Below, piece after piece: positions 1 through 31,058 of a DNA stretch of 43,087 bases. The notes below the pieces were generated by a model that saw only the letters and a list, made by a program, of their open reading frames with translations, did not search any database and was not told where the DNA came from. Source of the stretch: Nitrospirales bacterium (GTDB lineage Bacteria; Nitrospirota; Nitrospiria; Nitrospirales; UBA8639); NCBI GenBank assembly GCA_022825885.1, contig JAJDVY010000047.1:1-43087 (forward strand), written 5' to 3'. A program made the translations under genes and the position numbers. Position 1 is the first letter of the stretch. The number at the start of each line of letters is the position of its first letter.

Positions 1-297
1 CAGAGAAAAACTCTGGATCCTCGCTTTCGCAAGGATGACAGCTTAGGGGATCGAGTGTCTTTGGGTTTTCCTTCGTTGTTTGGAAAGGCACGGGACGACA
101 CCCTTCGGCTCCGCTCAGGGCAGGCTGCAGGTCGTCCCCTACAGAATCGGGGTGGCGCGTAGGGGCGGTGCCCGCCCTGTTTTTTTATTTCATTCGTAAT
201 GGCGAAAGACGCTGGATCCCGGATCAAAGCCGGGATGACAGACAGAGGGGCAGGCATGACCGATAGGATGGGGTCTTGCGTGGATTTCCGCGGCCGG
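1..297. repeat. Intergenic repeat cluster (GGATCC-type and CTTCGCTCAGG-type elements)
   Basis: No gene is seen here. Positions 11-40 and 211-240 are two copies of an imperfect palindromic element that begins CTGGATCC and ends GGATGACA. Positions 102-125 hold one copy of a 24-bp element with the core CTCCGCTCAGGGCAGG. Both families recur through the window, for example at 2903-2980, 3015-3048, 10622-10653 and 31023-31046. Confidence 0.7.
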
Positions 298-4011: not shown

Positions 4012-4068
4012 TGTTCCTCCCCTTTGTAAGGGCTCTACCTCCCCTCGCCCCTCCTTACAAAGGAGGGG
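4012..4068. repeat. CCCCTC-type repeat (inverted pair)
   Basis: CTCCCCTTTGTAAGGG and CTCCTTACAAAGGAGGGG form an inverted pair around CTCTACCTCCCCTCG. The right half is the intact version of the sequence that is split by a 24-bp element at 31023-31046. Confidence 0.7.
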
Positions 4069-5141: not shown

Positions 5142-5574
5142 CAGGTCGTCTCCTTTGATTTTCATCGTTCGTCCGGTATGGAAGCCAGTTCCTTGGCAAA
5201 CGCCAAGGGTGCATGGTAGCCCACTCGCGTCCCATCGTCAACTCCGGTGGAGGGACGCCAGGGCCTTGTTGATTGTGCATTGTGGATATCAAGAGCCTGC
5301 GTGCGCAGGCATGATGGGGTGATTGTGTACATTTTGTCATATTTTGTACAATTTGTACGTTTTGTACAATTTGTACAATTTTTTACATTTTGTACAATAC
5401 GTACAATACGTGAACACGGACAGGCATAACCGATTGGGCTGCCTCGCTTGTCTCTTTAAAGGGAGGCATGTTATCATTCCATTGTGTCGGGTGTTCCGTT
5501 GCAACCCTGCGAACTCCACCAACGTCCATTCTTCATCCCTTCATCATTACGATCCACTGAGGTATAACGTTTTC
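5142..5574. other. Long intergenic region with hairpins and a tandem array
   Basis: No gene is seen between the divergent genes. Two small inverted repeats are present: CTTGGC/GCCAAG near 5190-5208 and GCCTGCG/CGCAGGC at 5295-5310. The region then runs into the 9-bp array at 5319-5405 and a less repetitive leader. It probably carries promoters for both flanking genes. Confidence 0.5.
5319..5405. repeat. 9-bp tandem array, consensus TTTGTACAA
   Basis: GTAC or near-GTAC cores begin at 5327, 5336 (degenerate), 5346, 5355, 5364, 5373, 5383 (degenerate), 5392 and 5401, that is every 9-10 bp. Each complete unit contains the 8-bp palindrome TTGTACAA or most of it. It lies about 170 bp before the start of the next gene. 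Confidence 0.85.
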
Positions 5575-7242
5575 ATGGCCCACGGCCCGGCGGCAGGTCC
5601 CATGCTTCATCAGTATTCGGATACGACATCCCCTTCCGGCGTCTCTCCCGCGCCTCCGTTGAGCGACGAGGGCCGACGCTGCTCGGCTGTGCATCATGCC
5701 CTTCAAGCGGCGGGCTTGTTCGAGTCTTCGCCCGCCTGGCGCGTCTCACCCGTTCCGTTCCAGTTGACCGCCGACGAGGTGGTGTTCTTCGAGAACCTGG
5801 GGCCCCAACTCTGGTCCTTCTCCAAGGCGCTCAACCGGCTGTACCTGGAGAGCGTCAAGGGCCGGCAACCGTTCTGGGTCCACCAGTATCTGGATCAGGG
5901 CAAACCCCAAGCCCTGCTGGAATATGCGCGTATGAAGCGGTTTCGTGACGCCGTTCCCCACGTGATCCGTCCGGACGTGATTCCGACTGAGACGGGCATG
6001 ATGATCACGGAGTTGGACTCGGTACCCGGCGGGATCGGGATGACGGGCAGTCTGTCCGCCGCCTACGGCGCGTTGGGTGATGCACTCGTCGGCGGGACCG
6101 ACGGCATGATCGACGGGTTTGCCAGGCTGTTCCGGTCCGAGGACCCTTCGGCAGGCTCAGGGCAGGCTCCTTCGGTACGCTCAGGGCAGGCTCCTTCGGC
6201 TTCGCTTCCTTCGGCTTCGCTCAGGACAAGCAGGACAGGCAGGACAAGCGGGGCAGGTTCCGCTCTCGGGGAGGCGGGTTGTCTCGCCATCGTGGTGTCC
6301 GATGAGGCCGAGGATTACCGGACGGAAATGGAGTGGGTGGCGTGCCGGCTCCGGGCCGCGGGCGTGGACGCCTATTGCGTGCATCCGCGTGACCTCCGGT
6401 TTGCCGAAGCGAACCTGTCCCCGCAGCTTGGCCCCGCAGGGGTTAGCGGGGACACGGCGGGAATCCGGGTCATGATGGAGACGCCTTCCGGGGAACGGCC
6501 CGTTTCGCACATCTATCGGTTTTTCGAACTCTTCGACCTGGACAACGTCCCGAAGTCCGAATTGCTGATGTATGGCGCCAAAAAGGGCCGGGTGCGCGTG
6601 ACGCCGCCGTATAAGCCCTGGATGGAGGAAAAGCTGGCCTTCGCGCTCCTGCATCATCCCATGTTGGAGGGGTTCTGGGCGGATGCCCTGGGGACGGACG
6701 TGTTTGCGCATCTCCGGCAGGTCATGCCCAAAACCTGGATCGTGGACCCGCGTCCCCTGCCGCCGTCTGCGATTATCCCGGGGCTCACGCTTGACGGGAA
6801 AGCCGTGTCCGATTGGCGACAGTTGGCCCAAGCCACGCAGAAGCAGCGGCAGTGCGTCCTGAAACCGTCGGGGTTTTCGGAACTGGCCTGGGGCAGCCGC
6901 GGGGTGGTGGTGGGGCATGATATCCCGCAGTCTGCCTGGGCGGCGAAATTGGATCACGCCCTGGATGCCTTTACCACGACGCCTTACGTGTTCCAGGCGT
7001 TTCACAAGGGCCGGCAGTACGAGATGACGTATTGGGACGAACGCACGGGGCAACCGGCCTCCATGGAGGGACGGGCCCGGCTGTCTCCGTATTATTTTGT
7101 GTCGGGCGACGAGGTGACGCTCGGCGGGATTCTGGCGACGGTGTGTCCCAAGGATAAAAAATTGCTGCACGGCATGCGCGATGCCATCCTGGCGCCGTGC
7201 GCCCTTCGACTTCGCTCAGGGCAGGCGCTGCCGGCACGGTAG
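5575..7242 (+). CDS. Large unrecognised protein, possibly ATP-grasp-like
   Basis: A 555-residue soluble protein, not assigned to a family. Features suggest a ligase: EFFIELD-like acidic/hydrophobic segments such as TGMMITELDSVPGGIGMTG in the first third, CVLKPSGFSELAWGSRGV (a Lys-containing strand followed by a Gly/Ser-rich loop, as in ATP-grasp nucleotide sites) and QYEMTYWDERTG near the C-terminus. The start at 5575 follows TGAGG; upstream codons only translate the tandem array. Residues about 191-225 are encoded by an in-frame array of short repeats (6145-6249), and the last residues (7203-7226) by another copy, so both are probably dispensable insertions. It leads a run of same-strand genes with a glutaredoxin-like protein and KamA. 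The ATP-grasp idea is an inference from pattern only. Confidence 0.75.
   Translation: MAHGPAAGPMLHQYSDTTSPSGVSPAPPLSDEGRRCSAVHHALQAAGLFESSPAWRVSPVPFQLTADEVVFFENLGPQLWSFSKALNRLYLESVKGRQPFWVHQYLDQGKPQALLEYARMKRFRDAVPHVIRPDVIPTETGMMITELDSVPGGIGMTGSLSAAYGALGDALVGGTDGMIDGFARLFRSEDPSAGSGQAPSVRSGQAPSASLPSASLRTSRTGRTSGAGSALGEAGCLAIVVSDEAEDYRTEMEWVACRLRAAGVDAYCVHPRDLRFAEANLSPQLGPAGVSGDTAGIRVMMETPSGERPVSHIYRFFELFDLDNVPKSELLMYGAKKGRVRVTPPYKPWMEEKLAFALLHHPMLEGFWADALGTDVFAHLRQVMPKTWIVDPRPLPPSAIIPGLTLDGKAVSDWRQLAQATQKQRQCVLKPSGFSELAWGSRGVVVGHDIPQSAWAAKLDHALDAFTTTPYVFQAFHKGRQYEMTYWDERTGQPASMEGRARLSPYYFVSGDEVTLGGILATVCPKDKKLLHGMRDAILAPCALRLRSGQALPAR
6145..6249 (+). repeat. In-frame array of 24/15/9-bp repeat units inside a gene
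   Basis: Units: 24 bp at 6145-6168, 24 bp at 6169-6192, 15 bp at 6193-6207, 24 bp at 6208-6231, then 9-bp AGGACAGGC and AGGACAAGC. The total of 105 bp equals exactly 35 codons, so the frame is kept. It encodes a low-complexity Pro/Ser/Ala/Gly/Arg stretch (PSAGSGQA, PSVRSGQA, PSASL, ...). Confidence 0.85.
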
Positions 7243-30862: not shown

Positions 30863-30958
30863 ATGGCGAGTGTAGTAAAAAAACGACGAAAAAAAATGCG
30901 GAAGCATAAGCATAAAAAACTTCGCCGACGCATGAAATTCGCCCGTCGGCGGAACTGA
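30863..30958 (+). CDS. AURKAIP1/COX24-domain mini ribosomal protein (bS22/mS38-like)
   Basis: A 31-residue, extremely basic protein: MASVVKKRRKKMRKHKHKKL then RRRMKFARRRN. The S-V-x-K-K-R-R-K-K-M-x-K-H-K-x-K-K-L pattern is the AURKAIP1/COX24 (DUF1713) domain, homologous to mitochondrial small-subunit protein mS38 and to the mycobacterial ribosomal protein bS22. In ribosomes of that type it lies near the decoding centre. AAGGAG lies 5 bases upstream of the ATG, and a promoter-like TTGACA lies about 130 bp upstream, so expression is likely. It is easily missed because of its size. Confidence 0.88.
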   Translation: MASVVKKRRKKMRKHKHKKLRRRMKFARRRN

Positions 30959-30997
30959 GGTTCACGATTCCAGCACCAGGTGGGCGGGGGAAATACT

Positions 30998-31058
30998 CTC
31001 CACCTCCCCCGCCCCTCCTTACCCTTCGACTTCGCTCAGGGCAGGCAAAGGAGGGGAA
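30998..31058. repeat. CCCCTC-type repeat split by a 24-bp element
   Basis: CACCTCCCCCGCCCCTCCTTAC and AAAGGAGGGGAA are the two halves of the element found intact at 4032-4070. Between them, exactly at 31023-31046, sits one full 24-bp element (CCTTCGACTTCGCTCAGGGC plus AGGC). Removal restores the uninterrupted CTCCTTAC-AAAGGAGG sequence. Confidence 0.8.

Follow-up and report, generated by a model that had tools for sequence, protein, structure and literature searches.

How units of about 24 bp that carry neither genes nor obvious ends are copied in bacterial genomes is a general question. Judged by size, nesting, and context, the closest known kind to the element described here would be the SDR elements of cyanobacteria. 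These are reportedly dispersed, non-coding units of 21-27 nt in Nostoc punctiforme and its relatives, for which recent mobility is said to have been inferred, and they are said to occur inside other repeats and inside their own copies. The SDR work (Elhai et al. 2008, Genome Res 18:1484) is cited in PMC3116915 and PMC3733652. The element examined herein, which we call E, resembles SDRs in its size, its dispersal, its lack of coding capacity, and its nesting in both itself and other repeats. However, the SDRs, compared here by description, are found in a different phylum and are apparently unrelated in sequence. Moreover, comparison of empty and filled orthologous sites across several species makes the mobility of E evident, and these sites include in-frame nested insertions within genes.

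REP repeats, which include GTAG- and CGTC-tagged palindromes (PMC3733652) and have been discussed with RAYTs (PMC2817692) and REPINs (PMC3116915), offer a second comparison. Like REP/RAYT repeats, E is dispersed, falls within a size range of 20-40 bp, is partially palindromic, and is mostly extragenic. In contrast, E carries no GTAG or CGTC tag, forms a weak hairpin at best, resides in a genome with no Y1 gene, and is also intragenic and self-nested. Specific insertion into palindromic repeats is also a feature of certain insertion sequences whose targets are REP palindromes (PMC1525189). However, these are complete elements that encode a transposase of their own, whereas E measures 24 bp. Rickettsia palindromic elements (RPEs), of about 100-150 bp, lie in frame in protein genes, and the GC-rich elements of yeast mitochondrial DNA are short, mobile, non-coding palindromic repeats. 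E likewise lies in frame in protein genes but, unlike RPEs, contributes only 24 bp or eight codons per copy, and the yeast elements belong to organelle DNA and differ from E in sequence, target rule, and size. RPEs are mentioned in PMC10969869 and mobile GC-rich short elements in PMC4478555. No match to the sequence of E or to the peptides it encodes was found in the open-access papers searched. What is new here is the demonstration of base-exact gains from orthologous evidence polarised by outgroups, together with in-frame nested growth inside a gene.

The window, a stretch of 43,087 nucleotides, constitutes contig 10 of a 2.38-Mb MAG that is 95.5% complete (G000). We conclude, with a probability of roughly 80%, that E is a non-autonomous and very small mobile element, copied precisely and as a unit to new locations without duplicating its target. 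This places E among the smallest mobile DNA elements described to date. The supporting observations are exact presence and absence at orthologous sites, the polarity of two of these sites (C and D), the retention of host arms, the occurrence of different E variants at one point of the host, self-nesting, and in-frame copies.

An exact copy of E (CCTTCGACTTCGCTCAGGGCAGGC, 24 bp) matches the plus strand of the window at 31023-31046, and the family to which it belongs has the consensus YCCTTCGRC-NNN-GCTCAGGRCAGG with a unit length of 23-24 bp. Its boundary carries a one-base ambiguity (TTA/CCC...CAGG/CAAA or TTAC/CCT...AGGC/AAA), such that 31022-31045 is equally possible. The initial annotation placed this unit exactly inside a second repeat, and indeed it splits the 3-nt loop of a 21-bp hairpin, which we call the CTCC element (CCCCTCCTTACAAAGGAGGGG). 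On the plus strand, the 5′ stem CCCCTCCTT spans 31012-31020, the 3′ stem AAGGAGGGG spans 31048-31056, and the loop ACA is now divided between 31021-31022 and 31047, with E located between A and C or between C and A. The empty hairpin folds into a 9-bp stem capped by the ACA loop (DNA -8.7 kcal/mol, z -4.9; RNA -14.8, z -4.2). Together with a left part, CTCCACCTCCCCCG, the hairpin and E make up a composite repeat at 30998-31058 (plus strand). Close copies of this composite of approximately 61 bp are dispersed in related genomes, where the region (query 139-200) matches many places, mostly at 80-98% identity.

Removal of the 24 bp restores an intact target, as had been proposed. When joined, the flanks CTCCTTAC and AAAGGAGG give CTCCTTACAAAGGAGG, a sequence found a single time in the window (0.01 expected by chance) at 4051-4066, one base away from the previously assigned 4052-4067, within an intact and empty CTCC hairpin at 4048-4068 (plus strand). 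This paralogue of the target is a family member only and not the parent of the window site. Its presence in the same window was initially considered a rare catch, but is less remarkable given that G000 carries about 20 exact copies of the empty form (CTCCTTACAAAGGAG) and that composites recur, with 5 exact E-in-CTCC composites in G000 and 51 in 11 of the 14 genomes of the genus. The real evidence for mobility is provided by orthologous empty sites rather than by the window paralogue.

The search for further copies in this genome and its relatives, also suggested at the outset, revealed 95 matches to a strict E pattern in G000, compared to none for a reversed-pattern control. This census rests on strict pattern searches and on the stretches around the matches, from which 93 distinct E contexts were read. 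The unit length, dispersal, and high copy number of E are thus all SDR-like. Within the window, a second exact E is present at 7203-7226 along with three further copies having no more than three mismatches, whereas shuffled sequences predict none.

The orthologous window site lies between an open reading frame (ORF) for a COX24_C-like protein of 31 residues and an ABC transporter gene, and both flanks are conserved. The same two genes identify the empty alleles as orthologous, and relatives do not all carry the composite. Specifically, the site is filled in G000 and G003 and empty in the sister species G009 and G011 (CTCCTTACAAAGG), which provides the contrast between relatives with and without the 24 bp that the initial annotation had called for. 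The element is truncated in G010 and G004 and replaced in G005, and the CTCC element is entirely lacking from G001, G006, G008, and G012. This last finding indicates that the CTCC hairpin arrived first, within the ingroup, and that E followed later.

Several minor features of this locus were also observed. The COX24_C-like basic ORF (window 30863-30955; Pfam PF08213) is highly conserved upstream of the ABC transporter throughout the genus. A hairpin upstream of E (window 30985-31014) exhibits a paired change, being GGGCGAGGG/CCCCTCGCCC in G009 and G011 and GGGCGGGGG/CCCCCGCCC in G000. The filled allele of G003 includes a further 25-bp hairpin in its left arm, and this second hairpin, RACTTTTCCCTCTTCGGAAAAAGTY, is carried in that arm by the CTCC elements of two G003 sites (L011/L076 and L301), where it may represent a small insert.

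In a species tree based on about 6 kb and on MAG assemblies, G000 branches before the split between (G003, G010) and (G004, G011, G009, G005) with only 70-85% support. The window site alone therefore cannot separate two insertions from one insertion and one loss, which are equally parsimonious on the tree alone. One might propose that composites are ancestral and that empty forms reflect precise deletion of 24 bp, given that either scenario calls for two events at the window site. To examine additional sites, the joined flanks of four other G000 composites (A to D) were searched in the genus, and orthologous stretches were aligned. G000 is the sole filled genome at site C, where G001, G006, and G011 are empty, and again at site D, where G005, G008, and G009 are empty and the unusual arms CCACCTAACCTCCCC are kept. 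The empty genomes include outgroup species (G001 and G006 at site C, G008 at site D; 85% support in the tree), and therefore E was gained at these sites rather than lost. Furthermore, an HtrA-like gene described below (S5) lacks all 48 bp of its E insert in G004 and G005, and the match length in the outgroup G006 also fits an empty state. Nor is E flanked by any direct repeat of more than 1 bp that could guide slippage. Given these findings, we regard precise deletion as highly improbable.

Site A is likewise filled in G000 alone and empty in G010 and G011. A locus-specific arm, CTTCTACCTCCCCTTCACCCC, is common to the filled G000 and the empty G011, and the resident arm in the orientation of E reads CTTCTACCTCCCCTTCACCCCTCCTTAC in both. 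At sites A and D, the resident arms do not differ between filled and empty alleles, and so E entered resident hairpins without bringing foreign arms. At site B, G011 carries a truncated element, and at three other sites (S1, S2, and S4) the whole intergenic stretch differs, such that no clean empty allele is available. Precise presence or absence at the window site, A, C, D, S5, and S6 (a gene site also described below) is another SDR-like characteristic and bears out the mobility that was initially proposed. A target duplication, another of the signs to be sought, was found at none of the orthologous sites beyond the one-base ambiguity, and so the target-site duplication expected of a MITE is lacking. 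Some junctions are not perfectly clean, as CCTTA has become CCTGA beside E at sites C and D and in the G003 window site. After this change, CCTG can pair with the CAGG end of E, an outcome that quasi-palindrome correction following insertion might produce.

Different composites have unrelated flanks, and the composite of approximately 61 bp is itself dispersed as a repeat. Another possibility is that E itself is immobile and that an old 61-bp composite converts resident empty CTCC hairpins through ectopic gene conversion or recombination. Dispersal of the composite as a unit in the genus is consistent with this proposal, as are the recurrence of the CCTGA variant in several composites and the replaced left arm of the G003 window site, which matches the arm of another G003 CTCC copy. 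However, conversion does not readily explain the locus-specific arms retained beside E at sites A and D, and the homology available on the short side is only about 10-12 bp. In addition, E is found alone and precisely inserted in genes and other repeats that have orthologous empty sites. Gene conversion is thus already disfavoured for E in general, and we judge it to be quite improbable. Across the composites of the genus, many E sequence variants are found at one and the same point of the CTCC loop.

Sites where E stands alone add to the case for a mobile 24-bp unit. At site C, G001 carries a 23-bp E variant (CCTTCGACAGGCTCAGGACAGGC) within TCATTC^GTTGACG (where the caret marks the insertion point) of a non-CTCC repeat, and this position is empty in G000, G006, and G011. 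In the gene at S5, whose HtrA-like assignment was made by eye and whose fragment gave no Pfam match, the insert measures 0 bp in G004 and G005, 48 bp (E in E) in G000 and G003, and 72 bp (E in E in E) in G010, always in frame. The encoded proteins accordingly contain 0, 16, or 24 extra residues among species. The gene (G000 C49:41125-41547; L265, L313, L314, L315, and L316) appears to encode a secreted protein, with the E series located after the signal peptide.

The exact E at 7203-7226 (S6; plus strand) lies in frame at the 3′ end of ORF 5323-7242 and adds LRLRSGQA to the C-terminus of its product. These 24 bp are present only in G000 and G009 and are absent from G003, G004, G006, G010, and G011. 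Three more E units, tandem or nested, lie in frame in the same ORF at 6145-6231 (plus strand). This ORF, for which no Pfam family was found, therefore contains four in-frame E units (SGQAPS..., LRLRSGQA), and its C-terminus varies between species by E.

E is nested both in itself and in other repeats, as is characteristic of SDR-like elements. In the window, an E variant occupies the loop of another hairpin repeat, GGGACGAC...GTCGTCCC, at 102-125 (plus strand). E-in-E arrangements are found on the minus strand at 1597-1654, with extra left and right half-units, and at 2916-2963, within a GTCATCCTTGCG...GCGAGGATCC repeat. Half-units (left CCTTCGGCTNCGCTT, right AGGACAGGC) flank E on both sides in 30 cases, on the left only in 6, on the right only in 4, and on neither side in 53. 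This co-occurrence (Fisher p 2.8e-14) is as expected for E inserting into the middle of E. The host context GGGACGAC^GTCGTCCC is filled in 10 and empty in 3 of the instances seen, and further contexts include GTCATT^CGTTGAC, ATCCTTGCG^CGAGGAT, and CCCCAGC^CCTCTCCC.

Insertion occurs at the stem apex in CTCC, GGGACGAC, GTCA, and self hosts. Some other hosts, among them CCCCAGC^CCTCTCCC and the S5 gene, show no stem, and so loop targeting is not a general rule. In the test by host family, the mean flanking stem exceeds that of permutations (p 0.0005), but the count of stems of at least 5 bp does not clearly do so (p 0.06). The first base of E covaries with the R of CAGGR (C-G 29, T-A 43, C-A 17, T-G 3; p 1e-8), as would be expected of a YCCT/AGGR stem, although shared descent within subfamilies may also play a part. 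A strong hairpin formed by E itself was also considered, but the folding energy of E alone is no better than that of shuffled sequence. The RNA folds of E are more stable than its DNA folds.

Regarding the enzyme, we lean towards insertion in trans, either into single strands that become exposed or by way of RNA, and place little confidence in one route or the other. Two proposals can be accommodated within the main reading and are not exclusive of it. First, E might be the REP of a RAYT that moves it through single-stranded DNA. The insertion of E without target duplication, in hairpin loops, and at TTAC or TGAC in the CTCC target is reminiscent of IS200/IS605-type chemistry, and G004 encodes a Y1-type protein of RAYT-like size. 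However, no Y1_Tnp (IS200-like, Y1/RAYT) gene was found in G000 despite its 95.5% completeness and about 95 E copies, and such genes are patchy and rare in the genus. None of the six Y1 loci in relatives is flanked by strict E, with one degenerate E-like match being all that lies nearby. Likewise, no conserved GTAG or CGTC tag was seen by eye beside E in the 93 copies read, and E lacks a strong hairpin. We consider this proposal unlikely.

Second, E might move by way of an RNA copy that a reverse transcriptase (RT) makes, a route reportedly suggested for the SDR elements of cyanobacteria as well. A retron-type RT is encoded in G000 (C25:99109-99750; L337), whose best PADLOC match is RT-Toprim I-C, and the greater stability of E RNA folds is in keeping with this route. 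On the other hand, RTs are common, this one shows no link to E, no strict E is present in the RT loci examined, and the insertion of short hairpins is not a known activity of retron RTs. The involvement of an RT is therefore about as unlikely as that of a RAYT. The RT open frame itself apparently lacks a C-terminal domain.

For E as a mobile unit, events at the window site can be pictured as follows. E would have inserted at 31023-31046 into a hairpin repeat that was older and already resident, splitting its 3-nt loop. The donor was probably another genomic E copy, because about 95 exist. Insertion might target DNA that is exposed as a single strand, for instance at the apex of a lagging-strand hairpin or in a cruciform, or proceed through an RNA copy, and the enzyme presumably acts in trans. 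It is possible, although we lean slightly against the proposal in its entirety, that E, at a size close to the minimum for mobile DNA, is actively spreading, that it enters exposed loops including its own by a single-strand- or RNA-based mechanism, and that it extends proteins in frame. If so, its 8-codon length would allow proteins to grow in frame by 8, 16, or 24 residues. The 14 genomes of the genus provide base-exact insertions of known polarity, a host loop that stays fixed, and one gene in which self-nesting has produced a series of 0, 48, and 72 bp. Such material makes the target rule, the donor, and the enzyme testable, for units of approximately 24 bp that also lengthen proteins in frame.

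Strict E is present in 27 of 148 Nitrospirota genomes by pattern count. High counts in this search were confined to this genus (85 in G000, 61 in G010), one other genus of the same family (26), and one distant family (19). This patchy distribution suggests horizontal spread or repeated amplification. The related records Nitrospira sp. SB0662_bin_26, RHO3_bin_20, and bin75 and the Nitrospirales MAGs are sponge symbionts. A comparison of the counts from two patterns suggests that a C directly follows E in roughly 9/10 of copies. The stricter rule that E always inserts 5′ of a C is weakened, since the first search pattern itself required that C.

Other repeat arrays were also observed. In G000 (C13:11759-11873; L227), five E units follow one another head to tail with a period of 23 bp, which indicates that E also expands in tandem. 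Short tandem arrays are present in the window at 1727-1840, with 19-bp units (TTCAGAATGACGATGATAA), and at 5326-5404, with 9-10-bp units (TGTACAATTT).
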